Positions 16,881 through 64,000 of a stretch of DNA of 64,000 nt are shown piece by piece. The stretch lies in NCBI GenBank assembly GCA_947184155.2, contig CAMXCT020002702.1, positions 418,966 through 482,965 of the forward strand, written 5' to 3'. Source of the DNA: Cladocopium goreaui (Eukaryota > Sar > Dinophyceae > Suessiales > Symbiodiniaceae). Positions within the stretch are counted from its first letter, which is position 1. Every line of letters begins with the position of its first letter. The notes under the pieces were generated by a model. It was not told where the DNA came from. It made no database searches and was given only the letters and a program-made list of their open reading frames with translations. The position numbers and the translations under genes are program-made.

Positions 16881-18720
16881 ATATATAGTACAAATATATG
16901 TTTTATTTAAGTAATAAACAGATAATATTATATATAACAAATTCTATATATATCATAATATATATAAATAAAATATTTCATATTATATATTAAATAAAAA
17001 ACATATATATATTTTTTAAGTTATAATATTTATATATAATATATATATATATTTAATATTTAATATTATAAAGATAAGATATAAATCATACATGTTATAT
17101 ACATGCTATATTAAATATATAATTTATAGTTAAAATATATTAGATTATATATATTATATACTATATATGTATTATATATAATAGAAATATATCATATTAA
17201 TAATACATATTATATTTTTTATTTATTATATATATTGTAAAAAGCACAACTATATCATATTAATTAAACAAATTAAATCTTTTATACATAAATATTTATT
17301 ACAAATTTTGAAATGAACATATTTATCAATAATTTAAACACATATATTTTGTAAATTATATGTGTTATGTAAACGAATATCAAAAATATAATATACAGGT
17401 AAAAAAAACATATATATATGCATATATATTTAAAAGATTGAAAAAATGAAAAAAATAAAAATAAATAAATATAAACAATATATATATGTATATAAATATA
17501 TATATACTGTATATAAAATATTTAATATATATAAATATATATAATTTATATATTATATAATATAATATTATGTATATATATATATTTATATATATATATA
17601 TTTATATATATATATATTTAAAAATGAAATGTATAAATATATATATATAAATATTATATATATAATATATAAATAAATATATATATATAATAAAATATAT
17701 ATATATAATATATAAAAAATAAAAAGAATAGACATATATACAATAATAATAAATTTTACGATATATAATATATAATATCGTATCTAAAATATATAATATG
17801 TAAAAAATAAATAAAAATATAAAATATATATATACTATATAAAATACATAATATATAATTTGTAAATGTTTTATAATATATAAATTATATAAAATATAAT
17901 ATATATAAAATATTTCAAAAAATAAAAATATAAGTAATATATAAATAAATAATATATTCAAAATACATAATGTAGATTAAATATAATATATATAATATAT
18001 GCAATTTTTACAATGTATATAATATATTATATATATAATACATATAATAAATATAATATATATAGAATATATAAACTTAATATAATATATATAATATATG
18101 TAATATAAATAATATATTTAATATACTAAATATATATAATATTTCAAGAAAATATATTTAATATATAATATAATATTAATTATATATATATATTCTATAT
18201 ATTATATATATTATATAAATATTATATATTATATATATATTATATATATTATATATATATAAATATTATATATATTATATATTTTATATATATTATATAT
18301 ATATTCTATATATTATATATATTATATATATATATTATATTATTATATTATATGTATATTATATTATATATTATATTATCTCTATCTATTTTGAAACATA
18401 TTATAATATATAAAATAAAATATTTAAAATATATATTATATGTATATAAAATATTTATAGTTTTGATAATAAATATATATACATATATATAATTTATATA
18501 TATAATATAATATATTATTATTTTTAAATAATATAATATATATATAATATATTAGTTTAAAAAATACATATTGTAAATAATATATATATATATATTTAAG
18601 TAAAGATTCGAAATTACATATATAATATATTTTATATATTGAAAATATGTTAAATCAATATATATATATAAATAAATACTAAATGTATATATAATAAATA
18701 AATAAAAAATAAACTAAATA
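16880..18720. repeat. 1.8-kb A+T island
   Basis: Almost only A and T, mainly TATATA, AAATAT and TAATAT strings without a strict period, with isolated C/G. A Tyr/Ile-rich open frame (17602-17961 -) is a by-product of composition. Boundaries are abrupt, against ordinary sequence on the left and the 9-bp satellite on the right. Confidence 0.9.
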
Positions 18721-18734
18721 TAAGAAAAATAATA

Positions 18735-20010
18735 AATGAAATTTGAAATATTTGGAATATTTGGAATATTTGAAATATTTGAAATATCTGAAATATTTAA
18801 AATATTTGGAATATTTGAAATATTTGGAAATATTTGGAATAATTGAAATATTTGGAATATTTGAAATATTTGAAATATTTGGAATATTTGAAATATTTGA
18901 AATATTTGAAATATTTGAAATATTTGGGATATTTGACATATTTGGAATATTTGAAATATTTGAAATATTTGAAATATTTGAAATATTTGAAATATTTGAA
19001 ATATTTGGAATATTTGAAATATTTGAAATATTTGGAATATTTGAAATATTTTGGGGGAAATATTTGTAGATATGAAAATAATTAAAAATGGGAATATGAA
19101 CACTCAAATATTGGAAATATTTGAAATATTTGAAATATTTGAAATATGGAGGGAAAAATATGAATTTGAAATATATTTGGTGAAAATATTTGAAATATTT
19201 GAAATATTTGGGATCTTTGAAATTTTTGAAATATTTGAAATATTTGAAATATTTGGAATATTTGAAATATTTGAAATATTTGAAATATTTGAAATATTTG
19301 GAATATTTGAAATATTTGAAATATTTGAAAATAATTGAAATATTTGGAATATTGAAAATATTTGCAATATTTGAAATATTTGAAATATTTGGAATATTTG
19401 AAATATTTGAAATATTTGAAATATTTGGGCTATTTGAAATATTTGAAATATTCGGAATATTTGAAATATTTGAAATATTTGAAATATTTGGAATATTTGA
19501 AATATTTGAAATATTTGGAATATTTGAAATATTTGAAATATTTGAAATATTTGAAATATTTGAAATATTTGGGATATTTGACATTTTTGGAATATTTGAA
19601 ATGTTTGAAATATTTGAAATATTTGAGATATTTGAAAATAATTGAAATATTTGGAATATTGAAAATATTGGAAATATTTGAAATATTTGAAATATTTGAA
19701 ATATTTGAAATATTTGAAATATTTGAAATATTTGAAATATTTGAAATATTTGAAATTTTTGCAATATTTGAAATATTTGAAATATTTGAACATAATTGAA
19801 ATATTTGGAATATTGAAAATATTTGCAATATTTGAAATATTTGAAATCTTTGGAATATTTGAAATATTTGAAATATTTGAAATATTTGGAATATTTGAAA
19901 ATATTTGAAATATTTGGAATATTTGAAATATTTGGAAATATTTGAAATATTTGAAATATTTGAAATATGTGAAATATTTGGGATATTTGACATATTTGAA
20001 ATATATATAT
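18735..20010. repeat. satellite of 9-bp unit GAAATATTT, with higher-order pattern
   Basis: About 1.27 kb of GAAATATTT with the recurring variant GGAATATTT and rarer GGGATATTT and GACATATTT. The unit contains the palindrome AAATATTT. Because the period is three codons and no stop occurs, long frames of Phe-Glu-Ile, Tyr-Leu-Lys or Ile-Ser-Asn arise on both strands; none is a gene. A marker block (TAATTGAAATATTTGGAATA) recurs at about 19331, 19638 and 19793, pointing to higher-order units of roughly 155 and 307 bp. Confidence 0.95.
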
Positions 20011-20196
20011 TTGGAATATGTGATACTTCTGAAATTTTGTTTTTTTTTTAACGTTTCAATCCTTTCAAAACTTCTGTTCTGCTAAAGTTCTTGAACTATA
20101 TAAGTGAAGGTAAAGCATGTTTTTTAAAGAACAAAATGCAAGTAGATCACAGGGCCGCCTGTTGCCATATATATATATGTCAGGTTATACTTATAT

Positions 20197-20230
20197 GGCG
20201 GTTTGGGTTGGTGGTTTGGAAGTCTGGGAA
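20197..20230. repeat. outer left arm of the palindrome
   Basis: This 34-base segment is the reverse complement, with one mismatch, of 23304-23337 (core GTTGGTGGTTTGGAAGTCTG). It shows the inverted repeat extends outside the gap and simple repeats. Confidence 0.85.
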
Positions 20231-20287
20231 ATCAGAGTTATGTGCAAAATAGATTTGAAAAATGTGTTTTTGTTTTGTGTGTTTTGT

Positions 20288-20387
20288 NNNNNNNNNNNNN
20301 NNNNNNNNNNNNNNNNNNNNNNNNNNNNNNNNNNNNNNNNNNNNNNNNNNNNNNNNNNNNNNNNNNNNNNNNNNNNNNNNNNNNNNN
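20288..20387. other. assembly gap, 100 N
   Basis: Exactly 100 undetermined bases, the usual placeholder for a gap of unknown size. Confidence 0.99.
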
Positions 20388-20640
20388 CCTAATTCTAAAT
20401 CCTAATTCTAAATCCTAATTCTAAATCCTAATTCTAAATCCTAATTCTAAATCCTAATTCTAAATCCTAATTCTAAATCCTAAGTCTAAATCCTAAGTCT
20501 AAATCCTAATTCTAAATCCTAATTCTAAATCCTAATTCTAAATCCTAATTCTAAATCCTAATTCTAAATCCTAATTCTAAATCCTAATTCTAAACCCTAA
20601 ATCTAAATCCTAAATCTGAATCCTAAATCTAAATCTTAAT
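20388..20640. repeat. 13-bp telomere-like tandem repeat (CCTAATTCTAAAT)n
   Basis: About 19 copies of a 13-bp unit starting exactly at the gap edge, with AAGT variants. The unit looks like fused degenerate CCCTAAA heptamers, and one AAACCCTAAA sits at 20592-20601. TTTAGGG is the telomere repeat reported for dinoflagellates and most plants. The array may be an interstitial telomere-like tract, or the gap may join a chromosome-end contig. Confidence 0.85.
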
Positions 20641-21130
20641 CTTAATCTAAATCTAATCTAATCTAATCTAATCTATCTTTCTAAGTATCTGTCTATCTGT
20701 TTGTATCTGTCTATCTGTTTGTTTGTCTGTCTGTCTGTCTATCTATTTACTTATCTAATATATCATATCCAATATATCTATTTGTTTGTCTGTCTATATA
20801 TCTATCTTTCTATCTATATATCTATCTATCTATCTATCTATCTATCTCTCTCTCTCTCTATCTATCTATCTATCAATCTATCAATCTATCAACAAATCTC
20901 ATATATCTACATAATCTATCTATCTATTTATTTGTTTGTCTATTTGTCTATCAAACTAGTCTAATCTTCTCTGATCTTATCTAATCTAATCTAAGCTAAT
21001 CTAATCCAACCTCTCTAATCTTTCAAGTCTGTCTATTAATCTATCTAATCTATCTAATCCACCTAGTCTACCTTTTCTATCTGATCTATCTAATATGCCT
21101 ACTCTATCCAAGTGACCTTACCGATCTATT
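20640..21130. repeat. TCTAA / TCTA / TGTC-rich simple sequence
   Basis: Continues the 13-mer array into CTAAT pentamers, then TATC/TGTC tetramers and a CT run at 20848-20860, then decays through TCTAATC. Low complexity, no gene. Confidence 0.9.
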
Positions 21131-45982: not shown

Positions 45983-48900
45983 GTGGTTGGTGGAGATGTC
46001 GTCAGCGCAGGCAAACCCTATACCAACCGGGGTGGTGGATGGTGGAGCAAATCAAGTATGTTCTTGGGGGTTATATATGGTCGATCCCTTTTCTGTTGCG
46101 GTCTTCCAGTTGTTCTTCTTTCAGATCTTGCAGAGAGTGCTCTAGACAAAAGGTGTGTGATTAGATGGACCAAAAGGTATATCATAATATCATATAATAT
46201 CAACTTTACACTAATTTTAGGTAGAATCATAATAACCCCCATCATATCCATAACAGATCTCTTTCAATGGGTTTCGGCCAGGTGACACTCGCAGATGCAA
46301 CAGCCTTGACTCGGCACGGCTGGGAGCTGCTCTGCCAGGGACGCTGCCAGGAGGCCATCGAGGAGTTCTCCCGAGCCATCAAGCTGGACGAGAACTTCGC
46401 GGAAGCGTACAACAACCGGAGCATCGGCAAACAAATCGCAGGTGAGCAAGCCCCAAAATACCAACAACGCGTTGGAAGAATGTTATATATTGCTATGGGC
46501 CATGGGGGTAATACATGGTAATACTATGATCTACATTGTGTACCGATATGTAGCGTTGATATTGGTGGATATTTGGGGGACTATTGGTGATATTTGGTGA
46601 TTATCATAATCCATGAGCTGCGAACCTCTATAACAACACTAGTTGTCATGGGGTGGTTATACCATGTTATACCAATAAACATTATTTCACAGGCGAAGAT
46701 GCTGCAGACGATGCAAGCGTGGCAGATGCGTTGACGATGCATGACGCTGAAGCACAGATCAAGCTGCGACGGCAGCGGAAGTGGATGTGTGTCGGCTACA
46801 ACGCGCGGGGAGAACCTGAAGGTGAGAAAATAGCAGCAGATGCAGACTTTCTGATCTCCTTTGCGAGCCCGGACAGAGATGAAAACAATCGGATCCTCCA
46901 GGAACTCAAGACGGGAGTCTACTATGATGGGAGTCTTCGCCTCTTGCCGTAAAACTTGATAGTGGGTTTTGAACACAGTTTTCACTTCCACATGCCACGA
47001 AGTGTTGTCTGAGTGCATGAGGACCTGTGACCTTCTGCACCGACAAGTCACTTGGGATGGGGCTGCACATCAACGAAGGGCAAGATATGAAGCGCTGGAA
47101 CCCCATTTTTGCTGATTTAGATCAGCCCAGGCAGCCTGGAGAATATCCTCCATGGTTCAAGCATTACAAAAAGGCCGCGGAAAGAACGAGACATGGACTC
47201 CTCATTTTGCAGCTAACCGATTCTTATTTGAAGCTCCTGAGATGAGTTGGCGAGCTGTTTTCTGTGCCAATTTGCGTGACTAGGGAATATTGGGGGATGT
47301 GATGATGTGACAGGATTTGAATGTGATTTGTTTGATGCTGTTCATTGAGTTTTTCAGGTCCAAAGCCTGCCGGTGGGAGTTTGGCTACGTGCGAAAGCCC
47401 GAGCTTGTGCACGTCTATGTGCCTGGTGGTGACGCGTCTCCTGGTAGAATCGTCAAATGGGAGGAGCTGATGGATGATGCGGAGCTATGCAGGCAACCCT
47501 TCCGAGAGGCTTTGAATCACATGTTTCCAGCCAACCTGGATGCAGAAGATCCCTCCAAGGATGCAACCTCAGGCACCTTGATGCGACTCGAGAAGATGGC
47601 AGAGACTGCAGAGGAACAGGAACACCAGGCGTGGTGCGAGCTGCCTTTTCGACAATTGGCTTACAGCTTTGCCAAAAAATCATTCGCAGAGAACAGTGCA
47701 AAGGCGATGGCTAGTGCACATGAACTGCTTCTAGTCTACCTCCAGACCGGCTTTGCAGCCAGGGCCAAAAACCTTGGAAAGGATTTGTTGGAGACAATGG
47801 AGAGGACGATACCCCAAGGGCCCGCAGTAGCAACCCTTCTAACACATTTGAGCAATGCCCATGGAAAATTAGGTGAATACAGCCAACAGAAGGACCTGCT
47901 CGAGCGTGCTTTGAAAATCAAGGAGCGGCACTACGGGAAAGAACATCCCTCAGTAGCAGTTACTTTGACCAATTTGGCAAGTGCGCATGGAAGCTTAGGC
48001 GAATACAGCCAACAGAAGGACCTGCTCGAGCGTGCTCTGAAAATCAAGGAGCAGCACTACGGGAAAGAACATCCTGAAGTCGCAGTTACTTTGACAAATT
48101 TGGGCAATGCTTCTGGAATCGTGGGCGACTACGGGCTGAAGAAGGACCTGCTCGAGCGCGCGCTGAAGATCAAAGAGCAGCAGTACGGGAAAGAACATCC
48201 TGAGGTAGCCATTATTTTGACAAGTTTGGGCAATGCGCATGGAAGCTTAGGCCACTACAGGCTGAAGAAGGACCTGCTCGAGCGTGCGCTGAAAATCAAC
48301 GAGCAGCACTACGGGAAAGAACATCCTGAAGTCGCAGTTACTTTGATCAATTTGGGCAATGCTCATGGAATCATGGGCGACTACAGGCTGAAGAAGGACC
48401 TGCTCGAGCGCGCGCTGAAGATCAAGGAGCAGCACTACGGGAAAGAACATCTTGAAGTAGCAATTGCTTTAACAAATTTGGGCAATGCGCATGGAAGATT
48501 GGGCGACTACAGGCTGATGAAGGACATGCTGGAGCGTGCATTGAAGGTCACGGAGCAGCACTATGGGAAAGAACATCCCTTTGTAGCAATTCCTTTGACA
48601 AATTTGGGCAATGTGCATGGAGTCTTGGGGGACTATGGGCAACAGAAGGAACTGCTCGAGCGTGCTCTGAAAATCAGAGAGCAGCACTTAGGGAAAGAAC
48701 ATCCCGAAGTAGCAGATACTTTGACAAATTTGAGCAATTTTCATGGAAGCTTGGGCGACTACGGGCACCAGAAGGACCTGCTTGAGCGTGCGTTGAATGT
48801 CCTGGAGCAACACTACGGGAAAGAACATCCCAGAGTAGCAGTTACTTTGACAAATCTGGGCAACGCGCACGGAAGCTTGAGCAACTACAGGCTGAAGAAG

Positions 48901-49200
48901 GACCTGCTTGAGCGCGTGCTGAACATCAATGGCACTACGGGAAAGAACATCCTGAAGTAGCAGTTACTTTGATCAATTTGGGCAATGCTCATGGAAGCTT
49001 AGGCGAATACAGCCAACAGAAGGACCTGCTCGAGCGCGCGCTGAACATCAATGAGCAGCACTACGGGAAAGAACATCCTGAAGTAGCAGTTACTCTGTAC
49101 AACCTCGGCCTTGCCTATCAAGATACGGGCGACTGTTCCCGGGCAAAGGAGTGTGTGGAGCGTGCTTTGAACATCTTTGTGCAGCACCGCCATCCATATG
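45983..49200 (+). CDS. TIR-like domain protein with kinesin-light-chain-type TPR array (frameshifted copy)
   Basis: Exons: 45983-46055, 46125-46152, 46257-46441, 46693-about 46912, about 47022-47232, and 47358 onward. The first four introns except the fourth are GT-AG and keep phase; the last, 47233-47357, is GC-AG|G. Exon three encodes one TPR (GWELLCQGRCQEAIEEFSRA). Exons four to six encode a TIR-like fold: ADFLISFASPDRDE (first strand), FCTDKSLGMG (second strand region), and WFKHYKKAAERT...GLLILQLTDSYLKSKACRWE. The Glu of CRWE sits where TIR NADases have their catalytic Glu. Then come about ten 42-residue repeats of the form KDLLERALKIKEQHYGKEHP..VAVTLTNLGNAHG. A 4-base deletion at about 48931 shifts the frame; the next repeats continue in another frame from 48969. 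TIR-TPR proteins in other organisms sense or signal in immunity and cell death by NAD cleavage; that role here is inference. The 3' end and any upstream exons are unsettled. Confidence 0.7.
47867..49160. repeat. 126-bp coding tandem repeats (TPR units)
   Basis: About ten units of 126 bp, one 42-residue TPR each, with stretches such as GACCTGCTCGAGCG and TACGGGAAAGAACATCC nearly identical between units. The nucleotide similarity indicates recent amplification or gene conversion. Confidence 0.9.
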
Positions 49201-49490
49201 CAAATCGTGCAGAAACAGCTTTGCATGGCCTGGCGCAGCTTCCATTCCAGGGAGGCGTTGTTGGGGGCTCAGGACTGAGTCATGTGTTTGCCTACTATCG
49301 ATCTCCATGCAGCTTCCTAAGTCCTACTTTTTCTTTGTGCAGCACCGCCATCCATATGCAAATCGTGCAGAAACAGCTTTGCATGGCCTGGCGCAGCTTC
49401 CATTCCAGGGAGGCGTTGTTGGGGGCTCAGGACTGAGTCATGTGTTTGCCTACTATCGATCTCCATGCAGCTTCCTAAGTCCTACTTTTT
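49175..49490. repeat. 158-bp tandem duplication at the 3' end of the TPR exon
   Basis: Copy one (about 49175-49332) and copy two (about 49333-49490) are almost identical (GCAGCACCGCCATCCATATG at 49181 and 49339). Copy two is preceded by TTTTTCTTTGTGCAG, a good acceptor-like tract created by the duplication junction. Confidence 0.9.
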
Positions 49491-58833: not shown

Positions 58834-59058
58834 ATGCCCATAAATTGGTTTGGTGAACATGATCTCTCCGATAGTTGGGTGATGTACCAAAAAATGCGTC
58901 TTCAAAGACTTGACATAGTGCAAAGGGGCCCAGGTCCCAAAGTAGTGCAAGTTGTAGCCCTCTCAAAGAGGTTCCCTGATGTACTCGTAGTGGAAGTCTT
59001 CTATCCTTATGAGTTGCCAAACATCATGGCAGCTGCTGACCAACCAGCCAAACTTTGA
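58834..59058 (+). CDS. candidate terminal exon or small ORF, unknown
   Basis: The + frame reads LQRLDIVQRGPGPKVVQVVA then LSKRFPDVLVVEVFYPYELP to TGA at 59056-59058, just at the left edge of the tandem unit. Good composition; family unknown. Confidence 0.35.
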   Translation: MPINWFGEHDLSDSWVMYQKMRLQRLDIVQRGPGPKVVQVVALSKRFPDVLVVEVFYPYELPNIMAAADQPAKL

Positions 59059-59145
59059 CTTCAACAAGCCATTTGTGCTCTCAAATCTCTCCCGACCTCC
59101 CTTACCAGCTGCTGTGAAGCAGCCTTCTCCCATCTAGCGATCAGC

Positions 59146-60920
59146 ATGTTTGGCTTCAAGCAGGTGGAGAACCTGGAGGATGGCAGCGAGCTTGAGGCTG
59201 ATGTTTCTATTCAAATGAAACGGTCCACGTTGAAGAAGACGGCTGTAGCACTGGCAACTGCGATGGTCGTTTGTGTTGGCATTTTCGCCTTGTCAACGAA
59301 TGGCTTCAGCCGCAGCTGCAGCAATGTTGGAGCTTTGCAAGGCAAGTCTTCTTTGGACCTTAGTTCCGCCATCCGCAGCACTAGTGAAAAACTGATCCAG
59401 GCAACCAAGAACAACCAAACTCTGGCTGATGAGACTGTGCTGAAGGCCATGGTGAAGGCAGGTCGCAAGGTTCAGGACCATTGGGAGAAGCACCACATCC
59501 GTAAATTGGACACTCTTATGACCATCAGAAGGGTGAAAGGATTCCGCCAAAGACAAAAGGCCAAACTTGCTGGAATGGCAGAATGCTCCTTCAACATCTT
59601 GGAGGCATTTGTCTCAGTGGTGGGTATGGGTGATGACATCAATGCCATCATTCGCACTTGCCCTGCACCTCGTGATGGTGAGTCTGAGTTGGCTTGCCAG
59701 GTAAACGGTGCCATCCTGGGTGCTTGGGTGGGCAACCTTGCTGCCAAGCTGGCCTTGGCAGCTTCAGATTGTGCCTTGAGCCTCAACGTGGATGCCATTT
59801 GCTCTGCTGGTGTCGCAGGCTTGGTGTCAGCCATGGGAGAGATTGCAGCTGGAGCTTCTTTGGGTGTGGCCTGTTCCGGAACTCCGCCACAACTGAGCAC
59901 CACCAAGGTCAGTGTCCTGGGAGATCAGACCGTCCGGGACAGCCGACGTTTGCTGATTGGAGAAGGCGCTGTCGGCAATGGTGTGCAGTGTGGTGTGGAT
60001 GTGGGCATGGTGGCAGCCAACATTGCAAACATGGGTCTTGCCATCAACAAGGCCGTGAATGTGAACAAGTGCAAAGCGAGCACCTTTCGCTCACCATTGA
60101 ACGTGTTCAAGGGCATCCCAGAGACACTTTGCACCATTGACATTGGTGGTGCTGTGGCGTACATCGGTGAGGTTGTTACCTTCATCAATCTCATTGTGGT
60201 TCACTGTAAGGACTGAATGGGACTGAGCACGGCCTTTTTCCGCTGCCAAAGTTTCTTCTCGTTTATCGTTGCCTCTCTGAAGTTTTTGTTTAATCCTGGA
60301 GCATCCTGGAACACTCTTCATCAGGCACTGTTGAGCTTGTTCTGTCTAGAGATGCTGACATGGAAACCCTATATGCCAAGCACAAACACTGAGTTATTGT
60401 AACTATTGAATGATAAATGATAACAGACACTGTTGGTGATGTTGGCTCTGTTCTGTCTTCTTTGCCTTCAACTGTCTCAAGATCTTGAGACGGGGTGCAG
60501 CATCGTATTTTCGGCCAGGACTTTCTGGATGTCAACGCACTTTGTGCTGGCTCCATAGCTGCGATCACCACGGGTGCAGCGGCCATTGTGCCCTACGGCG
60601 CAGCAGTGCACGCGGCCTGCGCGAACAACCATTTCTTGAAGACACCCAAGAGTCAAGCACAGCTTTCGAAATTGTGGTATTCCCCAGGCTATGATCCTGT
60701 GTCAGGCTTGCGTCGACGCTTGACGGAGGAGGAGACGGCTGCTAAGCAACCCTTGAAGGAAAGCTTGTCTCAGATCGCGGCGAACCGTGAGACTTTGGAG
60801 GAGCTGAAGAAGGCGACGGATGTTCCCAAGCCGGGCAGCACAGAGGCAGACATGGAGACTCTCTTGAACCTCATGGGCGGAGAGGACAAGGCGCGTGCCG
60901 CCTGGCCATTTGAATGCTAG
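59146..60920 (+). CDS. single-pass membrane protein with six Cys-bracketed hydrophobic units, tandem copy 1
   Basis: Exon one 59146-60210, exon two 60519-60920, joined in frame to about 488 residues. Residues 1-31 are charged and cytosolic in type; 32-52 form a transmembrane anchor (TAVALATAMVVCVGIFAL), giving a type II topology. Residues 60-146 are polar and helical. Then come six units of 25-28 residues that begin and end with Cys and are Ala/Gly/Val-rich inside: 147-172, 184-209, 219-243, 282-309, 329-354 and 364-389. The sixth lies in exon two directly behind the junction, which supports the splice. The C-terminus is charged (LKESLSQIAANRETLEELKK). The intron starts GA and ends AG; AGGAC occurs at both borders. 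If unspliced, the first ORF ends at 60216. No known family; function unknown. Near-identity of the copies suggests high expression or gene conversion. Confidence 0.75.
60211..60518 (+). other. 308-bp GA-AG intron, copy 1
   Basis: Inferred intron with AGGAC repeated at 60209-60213 and 60517-60521, so the cut can slide without changing the product (CKDFLDVNALC). The copy 2 intron has the same length. An alternative GT donor (T|GTAAGG at 60206) would pair with AG at 60488-60489 and replace CKD by a different linker. Confidence 0.6.
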
Positions 60921-60931
60921 GTCACGTTCAG

Positions 60932-60950
60932 AGCCGTGAGGACGGCTTTT
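60932..60950 (+). other. 3' hairpin with T run, copy 1
   Basis: AGCCGT-GAGG-ACGGCT followed by TTTTC, 12 bases after the stop codon. Perfect 6-bp stem, identical in copy 2 (63700-63718). It resembles a transcription or 3'-processing signal; its role in this lineage is unknown. Confidence 0.6.
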
Positions 60951-61087
60951 CTATGTGTGGCCTATTCAAATCGTGTGGTCAGATAGTGTCAGAAGATGAA
61001 ATCCAACTGACGCATCGCGAATCACAATTAATTTGAGTATACTTGGATGTATAGGATATATTTACTTGATTTATTTTGACTTAGTTT

Positions 61088-61168
61088 CTATCAGCTCAAC
61101 AGCTGATAACAACTGTTGGTGCTAGGTCAACATGACCTAACTACCTGAATCATGAAGGATTCGGGTAG
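61088..61168 (+). other. three consecutive hairpins, copy 1
   Basis: Hairpin one: TATCAGCT-CAAC-AGCTGATA (61089-61108). Hairpin two: TAGGTCA-ACA-TGACCTA (61123-61139). Hairpin three: CTACCTGAATC-ATGAAG-GATTCGGGTAG (61141-61168), 11 pairs with one G-T wobble. They lie about 170-250 bases after the stop. Confidence 0.7.
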
Positions 61169-61236
61169 GCTGTGTAATTACTGGGGTTGCTTCAGCTGAC
61201 TTGACGACAATCCATGTCGAATGGTACAGGCAATAC

Positions 61237-61824: not shown

Positions 61825-61919
61825 CAATTTGACTTGAACAAGCCATTTGTGCTCTCAAATCTCTCCCGACCTCCCTTACCAGCTGCTGTGAAGCGCCCTT
61901 CTCCCATCTAACGATCAGC

Positions 61920-63688
61920 ATGTCTGGCTTCAAGCAGGTGGAGAACCTGGAGGATGGCAGCGAGCTTGAGGCTGATGTTTCTATTCAAATGAAACGGTCC
62001 ACGTTGAAGAAGACGGCTGTAGCACTGGCAACTGCGATGGTCGTTTGTGTTGGCATTTTCGCCTTGTCAACGAATGGCTTCAGCCGCAGCTGCAGCAATG
62101 TTGGAGCTTTGCAAGGCAAGTCTTCTTTGGACCTTAGTTCCGCCATCCGCAGCACTAGTGAAAAACTGATCCAGGCAACCAAGAACAACCAAACTCTGGC
62201 TGATGAGACTGTGCTGAAGGCCATGGTGAAGGCAGGTCGCAAGGTTCAGGACCATTGGGAGAAGCACCACATCCGCAAATTGGACACTCTTATGACCATC
62301 AGAAGGGTGAAAGGATTCCGCCAAAGACAAAAGGCCAAACTTGCTGGAATGGCAGAATGCTCCTTCAACATCTTGGAGGCATTTGTCTCAGTGGTGGGTA
62401 TGGGTGATGACATCAATGCCATCATTCGCACTTGCCCTGCACCTCGTGATGGTGAGTCTGAGTTGGCTTGCCAGGTAAACGGTGCCATCCTGGGTGCTTG
62501 GGTGGGCAACCTTGCTGCCAAGCTGGCCTTGGCAGCTTCAGATTGTGCCTTGAGCCTCAACGTGGATGCCATTTGCTCTGCTGGTGTCGCAGGCTTGGTG
62601 TCAGCCATGGGAGAGATTGCAGCTGGAGCTTCTTTGGGTGTGGCCTGTTCCGGAACTCCGCCACAACTGAGCACCACCAAGGTCAGTGTCCTGGGAGATC
62701 AGACCGTCCGGGACAGCCGACGTTTGCTGATTGGAGAAGGCGCTGTCGGCAATGGTGTGCAGTGTGGTGTGGATGTGGGCATGGTGGCAGCCAACATTGC
62801 AAACATGGGTCTTGCCATCAACAAGGCCGTGAATGTGAACAAGTGCAAAGCGAGCACCTTTCGCTCACCATTGAACGTGTTCAAGGGCATCCCAGAGACA
62901 CTTTGCACCATTGACATTGGTGGTGCTGTGGCGTACATCGGTGAGGTTGTTACCTTCATCAATCTCATTGTGGTTCACTGTAAGGACTGAATGGGACTGA
63001 GCACTGCCTTTTTTCGCTGCCAAAGTTTCTTCTCGTTTATCGTTGCCTCTCTGAAGTTTTTGTTTAATCCTGGAGCATCCTGGAACACACTTCATCAGGC
63101 ACTGTTGAGCTTGTTCTGTCTAGAGATGCTGACATGGAAACCCTATATGCCAAGCACAAACACTGAGTTATTGTAATTATTGAATGATAAATGATAACAG
63201 ACACTGTTGGTGATGTTGGCTCTGTTCTGTCTTCTTTGCCTTCAACTGCCTCAAGATCTTGAGACGGGCTGCAGCATCATATTTTCGGCCAGGACTTTCT
63301 GGATGTCAACGCACTTTGTGCTGGCTCCATAGCTGCGATCACCACGGGTGCAGCGGCCATTGTGCCCTACGGCGCAGCAGTGCACGCGGCCTGCGCGAAC
63401 AACCATTTCTTGAAGACACCCAAGAGTCAAGCACAGCTTTCGAAATTGTGGTATTCCCCAGGCTATGATCCTGTGTCAGGCTTGCGTCGACGCTTGACGG
63501 AGGAGGAGACGGCTGCTAAGCAACCCTTGAAGGAAAGCTTGTCTCAGATCGCGGCGAACCGTGAGACTTTGGAGGAGCTGAAGAAGGCGACGGATGTTCC
63601 CAAGCCGGGCAGCACAGAGGCAGACATGGAGACTCTCTTGAACCTCATGGGCGGAGAGGACAAGGCGCGTGTCGCCTGGCAATGCTAG
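61920..63688 (+). CDS. single-pass membrane protein with six Cys-bracketed units, tandem copy 2
   Basis: Exon one 61920-62984, exon two 63293-63688, about 486 residues. Exon one differs from copy 1 at one residue (Ser for Phe at position 2) and by a few silent changes such as CGT/CGC in the first 400 bases. Exon two differs by a 6-bp deletion near the end, so the protein ends ARVAWQC instead of ARAAWPFEC. The same anchor, six Cys units and GA-AG intron (62985-63292) are present. The 5' leader (61829-61919) is nearly the same as in copy 1 and includes TTACCAG (61874-61880), a possible spliced-leader acceptor, since dinoflagellate mRNAs are commonly trans-spliced. Confidence 0.75.
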
Positions 63689-63699
63689 GTCACGTTCAG

Positions 63700-63718
63700 A
63701 GCCGTGAGGACGGCTTTT
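63700..63718 (+). other. 3' hairpin with T run, copy 2
   Basis: AGCCGT-GAGG-ACGGCT then TTTTC, 11 bases after the stop; conserved with copy 1. Confidence 0.6.
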
Positions 63719-63855
63719 CCACGTGTGGCCTATTCAAATCGTGTGGTCAGATAGTGTCAGAAGATGAAATCCAACTGACGCATCGCGAATCACAATTAAT
63801 TTGAGTATACTTGGATGTATAGGATATATTTACTTGAATCATTTGGACTTACTTT

Positions 63856-63932
63856 CTATCAGCTAAACAGCTGATAGCAGCTGTTGGTGCTAGGTCAACA
63901 TGACAGCTACCTGGATCATTAATGATTTGGGT
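63856..63932 (+). other. hairpins downstream of copy 2
   Basis: Hairpin one is kept and lengthened: CTATCAGCT-AAAC-AGCTGATAG. Hairpin two is disrupted by a small deletion (TAGGTCAACATGACAG). Hairpin three is kept although its bases changed: CTACCTGGATC-ATTAAT-GATTTGGGTAG, with G-T wobbles replacing two Watson-Crick pairs of copy 1. Confidence 0.65.
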
Positions 63933-64000
63933 AGGCTGTGTAATTACTTGGGTTGCTTCAGCTGACTTGACGACAATCCATGTCGAATGGTACAGGCAAT

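Follow-up and report, generated by a model that had tools for sequence, protein, structure and literature searches.

In the window, by which we mean the whole stretch of 64,000 nucleotides of Cladocopium goreaui DNA that was analysed, positions 45983-49240 of the plus strand encode one gene, which is real and is a dispersed member of a tandemly expanded dinoflagellate gene family. The encoded protein would start with one TPR unit, followed by a TIR-like domain of divergent sequence; a linker then leads to a kinesin-light-chain (KLC)-type TPR array. On balance, we favour the reading that these genes encode a NOD-less TIR–TPR receptor-like family, probably intracellular, in which the TPR array would recognise and the TIR-like domain would signal. 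The proposal of the earlier note that the array acts as a sensor gains support from the tandem family, the 3 to 14 repeats per copy, the fast-changing face of helix A and the conserved TIR-like segment, whereas the innate-immunity-like role and the NAD hydrolysis that it also proposed are still matters of prediction.

The gene model of the window copy comprises five exons with matching phases, together encoding 759 amino acids (Table 1). Six exons with mostly fitting phases had been claimed before; the phases are borne out, but five exons were found and the first of these is unsupported, as a search of the cluster copies for its counterpart gave none. Exons 2 to 5 are joined in phase, the peptides DFLISFASPDRDE, FCTDKSLGMG and LQLTDSYLKSKACRWE are present as described, and the additional N-terminal TPR unit is confirmed by its Pfam match. 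The TIR elements are indeed assembled by way of a GC donor at 47233. Of 21 sequences, namely the window and 20 further stretches, 20 retain this donor, the exception being L053, which is without the region; the donor reads AA/GC or CA/GC (the slash marks the junction) and is preceded by TATTTGAA or TATTTACA. The acceptor of the same intron is AG/GTC in all 20 sequences holding the region, L051 and L056 included. The retention of the donor across copies shows that the TIR-like exons are indeed spliced to the TPR exon. Such a donor is ordinary, since dinoflagellate gene-prediction work describes programs set to accept GC and GA donors (PMC7245778). The donor of the intron between exons 3 and 4 is ambiguous, with a GA at 46915, a GT after GGGA and a GC at 46939, all in phase 1. 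The GC site is favoured, since L054 has a 1-nt indel just past it and L041 and L042 have in-frame 3-nt indels ahead of it; the choice alters 2 to 8 residues and leaves the conclusion unaffected.

Table 1. Features of the TIR–TPR gene in the window (positions are those of the window)
Feature	Position	Strand	Observations
Candidate exon 1	45996..46055	+	ATG, 20 aa, GT donor; phase compatible with exon 2
Exon 2, N-terminal TPR unit	46282..46441	+	TPR_11 E 2.5e-7; conserved in copies, there fused to exon 3
Intron between exons 2 and 3	46442..46692	+	absent from cluster copies
Exon 3, start of TIR-like domain (strand A and helix A, DADFLISFASPDRDENNRILQELK)	46693..46938	+	GC donor 46939 preferred; hhalign to bacterial-type TIRs
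Exon 4, middle of TIR-like domain (PVTFCTDKSLGMG ... QPGEYPPWFKHYKKAAERTRHGLLILQLTDSYL)	47022..47232	+	GC donor 47233
Exon 5, SKACRWEFGY Glu block, end of TIR-like domain, linker and about nine 42-aa TPR units	47358..48960	+	ends at frameshift stop
KLC-type TPR array	47836..49200	+	period 126 nt, 10 copies; frame change near 48931
Last TPR units and C-terminal cap, other frame	48927..49240	+	Pfam TPR_12 E 5.2e-17 on ORF; cap as in intact copies
Exact tandem duplication of gene 3' end	49174..49490	+	period 158 nt; repeat analysis

Exons 2 and 3 form a single fused exon in the cluster copies, and the 251-nt intron that separates them is specific to the window copy among those compared; because of this fusion, it was either gained in the window copy or lost in the cluster. 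An introner origin was dropped, since the intron is not a genome-wide repeat: a genome-wide search for a full-length second copy gave just two 41-nt matches. At the other end of the gene, a 4-nt deficit near 48931 shifts the frame of the window copy and leads to the stop at 48960, past which further TPR repeats and a cap resembling that of the copies follow in the other frame. The window copy itself is broken, which the earlier note had missed, and the note had no means of seeing that the gene is part of a large family; of its overall observation, the architecture, the peptides and the GC donor stand, while the exon count and the continuity of the frame do not. The duplication of the 3' end appears to be very recent or an assembly artefact. 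Elsewhere in the window, a 2.2-kb direct duplication (59054-61234 and 61828-64000) is 98.3% identical, each duplicate holding a 385-aa ORF with a hydrophobic stretch recognised by eye, of which the first copy has no Pfam match, and AT-rich satellites occupy 17460-21092, with a 9-mer repeated 139 times (18741-20004) in a stretch of very strong GC skew.

A search of the 1.166-Gb assembly of the same genome, in which the window lies on contig C2702, with 317 amino acids of the gene matched at least 81 stretches. The dinoflagellate spliced-leader core, counted in the sequence that we take it to have, has 172 exact occurrences in this assembly versus 0 for the reversed control, which marks the genome as that of a dinoflagellate; no relic spliced leader turned up in the window when up to three mismatches were allowed, and a 16-base part gave just two poor matches in the copy stretches read. 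Near copies were counted by exon 4, leaving out a 47% match on C119 and removing overlapping duplicates at contig ends (C4101/C3591 and C3591/C2851, 100% identical and counted once). Among the matches listed, this gives about 22 distinct near copies, the window included, with 16 on C4101, all on the minus strand within about 350 kb, two on C3591 and one each on C2851, C3646, C820 and C2702; matches that are more distant or without exon 4 lie on C1235, C4546, C2492 and C119. Identity among the matches listed is 74-80% for exon 3 in most copies and 82-89% for exon 4 in the full-length near copies. In the sequences read (20 stretches and one distant copy), 7 of 20 arrays contain a frame change, in two copies a frameshift precedes the array, and 8 of 17 gene models are intact to the cap, there being no spliced model for L051, L053, L055 and L056. 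Many copies are therefore decayed or misassembled, and either cause may apply. A search of viral contigs for the TIR-like domain gave no match, and searching 194 genomes from a single bacterial phylum with the family profile gave none either, a weak search without a positive control.

The assignment of the middle of the protein to a TIR-like domain, as put forward earlier, is upheld by profile kinship and by the accompanying controls, but not by the Pfam cut-off. TPR_10 does match the protein, and TPR_12 the ORF past the 4-nt deficit, whereas TIR_2, the sole Pfam family met by the TIR-like segment in all five members scanned, reaches E 0.076 and 13.9 bits on the window copy, below the cut-off of 28. 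Sequence comparison of the domain with the PDB gave no TIR match, NCBIfam gave no match, and PADLOC gave one weak TIR-like match (ThsB, E 0.029). A profile of 15 family members, which has little depth (Neff 1.16; L048 and L052 excluded), was compared by hhalign with 32 TIRs of the bacterial type, of which six bacterial genomes supplied 30 and contig C1 of this assembly two. With the GC donor of exon 3, the score is 24.45 (P 0.0014, HH probability 18%), a value reached by none of 300 column shuffles (mean 12.5, largest 22.41); the reversed profile scores 8.89, and two other parts of the same proteins, used as decoys, score 14.2 and 12.3. The other two donor choices give 29.3 and 34.1 (HH probability 49 and 77%), and two TIR_2 matches of the same genome, compared as single sequences, give 42.8 and 25.2. 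In the alignment, DADFLISFAS falls on strand A, and a long insert separates it from SYLKSKACRWEF, which falls on the Glu helix; with the insert removed, the TIR score is 37.4, a choice that was made after viewing the alignment and is not counted. Across strand A, helix A and the Glu helix, the profiles are more alike than expected by chance, and this supports a TIR-like segment that is probably homologous to TIR. Contig C1 (with L001 and L002) is 7.38 Mb long and probably a bacterial chromosome within the assembly: its TIR genes are uninterrupted, and one shares 63-67% identity with TIRs from six bacteria. A second TIR family of the genome (L003, L004 and L005, around 1456-2100) has the motif F-EQT ... 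YG-KTG-GYET--EL, unlike the SKACRWE family.

The Glu block is conserved. SKACRWE is present in 20 of 23 sequences, L051 having SQACRWE, L056 having SKACLWE and L053 being without the region; the Ser, Cys and Glu of S-x-x-C-x-x-E are kept in 22 of the 23, and a distant copy with 38% identity has SKPCRWE. The motif was counted anew without the filter of the dN/dS analysis, which admitted rows holding KACRWEFGY alone. For 14 cluster copies (L048, L052 and the window copy excluded), the TIR-like segment has a dN of 0.037, a dS of 0.157 and a dN/dS of 0.24, and compared with the window copy, these values are 0.078, 0.672 and 0.12. Purifying selection thus acts on the segment. NAD might be cleaved by means of the Glu conserved in SKACRWE, as the motif would predict.

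The claim of an array of 42-residue TPR units is confirmed: within the 759-aa model, Pfam matches TPR_10 with E 5.6e-66 and TPR_NPHP3 with E 1.9e-59, while an NB-ARC or NACHT match, sought with E up to 1, was not found. By sequence, the array is matched best in the PDB by kinesin light chains (KLC1, E 1.7e-29). An AlphaFold model of exon 5, made without an alignment, gives a regular helical array forming a TPR superhelix, with a mean pLDDT of 73; the array lies mostly between 77 and 95 and the first 116 residues below 50. In Foldseek searches with this model, O-GlcNAc transferase, designed TPRs and others have the best E-values; KLC1 and KLC2 rank near the top and have the higher target TM-scores (0.60 to 0.82). 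The array is thus of the KLC type by sequence and a TPR by its predicted fold. Between 3 and 14 units are matched per copy (none in L050, and 3 in L053, which is partial), and the mean DNA identity of units is 0.88 within and 0.87 between cluster genes, and 0.82 within the window copy.

The repeats were analysed as 116 units that passed a motif filter, each read in its own frame, of which 115 are unique. Among these, A25 and L26 are invariant and most of the remaining scaffold hardly changes, in contrast to a few freely varying positions. Relative to pooled dS, with ranges from a bootstrap over genes, the rate is 5.2-fold at position 42 (3.9-6.6), 4.4-fold at position 29 (3.0-6.5), 3.2-fold at position 11 (2.3-4.2), 2.8-fold at position 3 (1.9-4.0) and 1.8-fold at position 39 (1.3-2.5), all five lower bounds being above 1. 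Position 7, at 0.97 of pooled dS, is not above it in this pairwise test, and the 36 positions outside these six together evolve at 0.34 of pooled dS. In a tree-based parsimony count, 207 changes are synonymous and 502 nonsynonymous, with an omega of 0.70 overall and of 0.36 without the six positions, and the same sites lead (53.5 versus 4.5 at site 42). Against the local synonymous count, sites 3, 7, 36 and 42 of the nine listed have p<0.05, and sites 11 (p 0.078), 18, 27, 29 (p 0.12) and 39 (p 0.12) do not; as TPR repeats recombine, such tree-based tests may be inflated. The five sites still lead when the window copy is left out and when intact arrays alone are used, while the nine units of the window copy by themselves show a different order and a smaller excess.

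The predicted helix A spans 38 to 42 and 1 to 11, in which sites 39, 42, 3, 7 and 11 follow one another at spacings of 3, 3, 4 and 4 and would share one face of the modelled helix, site 7 less clearly. With helix A taken as 38 to 42 and 1 to 13, its variability is concentrated on one side (p 0.0027), whereas that of helix B is not (p 0.54). We take positions 42, 3, 7 and 11 to be TPR positions 2, 5, 9 and 13 of the ligand groove, a mapping to the concave face that depends on this numbering and on the helix spacing. The seven-position groove set presumed in the same numbering exceeds the remaining positions in variability (one-sided p 0.025; 0.16 in the window copy alone).

A recognition receptor is expected to pair a constant effector with a variable sensor, which is how the conserved TIR-like segment and the variable array may be understood. 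The groove of the TPR array would bind a peptide or protein ligand, while recombination would keep the repeats alike and add or remove them, and changes on the face of helix A (39, 42, 3, 11 and, less clearly, 7) and at position 29 on helix B would alter the binding surface. As neither an NB-ARC nor a NACHT switch was found, oligomerisation would need to be driven by the ligand or by TPR contacts; either ligand binding or the array's own contacts may gather the TIR-like domains and so start signalling, with an output of the TIR type, possibly NAD cleavage through the Glu of SKACRWE.

The same anatomy could also belong to a symbiosis or mating recognition family, with a ligand from a host or partner cell and a non-defence output. 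Such a role would suit a dinoflagellate genome, and a genome comparison ties varying numbers of TPR and ankyrin genes to host-symbiont recognition (PMC8045281); it differs from the receptor reading in the ligand alone, and we regard it as unlikely. Marginally less probable is a KLC- or NPHP3-like cargo or scaffold adaptor, in which the TIR-like domain would be a structural remnant and the variable positions would reflect cargo specialisation. The kinesin light chains among the top sequence and fold matches and the TPR_NPHP3 match all agree with an adaptor, but a tandem array of 16 copies with 3 to 14 units would be unexpected of one, some positions outpace the pooled synonymous rate, and the Glu block is kept within a constrained segment. 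A family decaying by unequal crossing-over under relaxed selection, its hypervariability being drift and recombination, would explain the frame changes within arrays, the two copies frameshifted upstream, the stops in the dispersed copy on C4546 and the fast sites that lack significance against the local synonymous count, but is improbable, as relaxation should lead to about equal rates instead of 2-5 times pooled dS at few sites with 0.34 elsewhere, the site ranking persists in intact arrays alone, the TIR-like segment retains a dN/dS of 0.24, and part of the frame changes could stem from faulty assembly, a parallel being a fungal repeat gene with a deletion that was considered a probable misassembly (PMC12222747).

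We therefore return to the receptor-like family, for which we infer receptor function, an intracellular location, NADase activity and a role in immunity or self/non-self recognition. In its furthest form, which we put forward as a tentative and somewhat doubtful proposal, dinoflagellates would own expandable NOD-less TIR–TPR immune or self/non-self receptors with specificity on the concave face and an NAD-consuming TIR readout, convergent with fungal NLR incompatibility. If true, this would provide a candidate innate or self/non-self recognition system for dinoflagellate cells, and it would show that conserved repeats, a variable concave face and a TIR-type effector can be combined without a NOD switch. 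If the species is in addition a coral symbiont, the family might carry weight in coral symbiosis, and symbiosis research would gain named genes, sites and residues to test. Among the matches listed from the open-licence literature, neither a recognition-receptor repertoire nor such a family was found for dinoflagellates.

Several known systems resemble parts of this architecture. The TPR domain of kinesin light chain shares with the array the 42-residue unit, the sequence match to KLC1 and the fold; kinesin light chain has about six diverged repeats and is not known to carry a TIR. An atlas of eukaryotic TIR clades based on EukProt describes divergent, uncharacterised TIRs as common across eukaryotes and mentions a few SARM1-like dinoflagellate TIRs, and the words TPR and tetratricopeptide are absent from its main text (PMC13142454). 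Plant TIR-NBARC-TPR proteins (TNPs) and the plant and bacterial TIR-NBD-repeat proteins combine TIR and TPRs in one protein, as here; however, all of these contain a nucleotide-binding domain, and TNPs are reported to be conserved among land plants (PMC9153377), whereas in the dinoflagellate family no NB-ARC was found, and an N-terminal TPR, tandem copies and hypervariable repeats are present. The candidate immune receptors of brown algae (NB-TPR and LRR-ROCO) are likewise algal, with shuffled repeats and positively selected LRR sites on the concave side, but are reported to have one exon per LRR, whereas the whole TPR array lies in one exon here; compared with NB-TPR, the dinoflagellate family has a TIR-like domain and no NB-ARC that could be found (PMC11378527).

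The nearest precedent is provided by the fungal NLRs with highly conserved TPR, ANK and WD repeats, as described for Podospora (Dyrka et al. 2014; PMC4986451). Their repeats are reported to be near-identical and to vary in number, from 2 to above 14 TPRs, with positively selected sites on the concave face of TPRs modelled on KLC, and their HET effector domain is remotely TIR-like (PMC4986451). In the dinoflagellate family, the repeats are also highly alike and variable in number, with fast change on the presumed concave face. However, the fungal proteins have a central NACHT or NB-ARC switch, and the diversity seen in the dinoflagellate is among paralogs of one genome. The dinoflagellate family would thus work like the fungal NLRs but is not an NLR, because no switch domain was found in it and it belongs to a dinoflagellate instead of a fungus.
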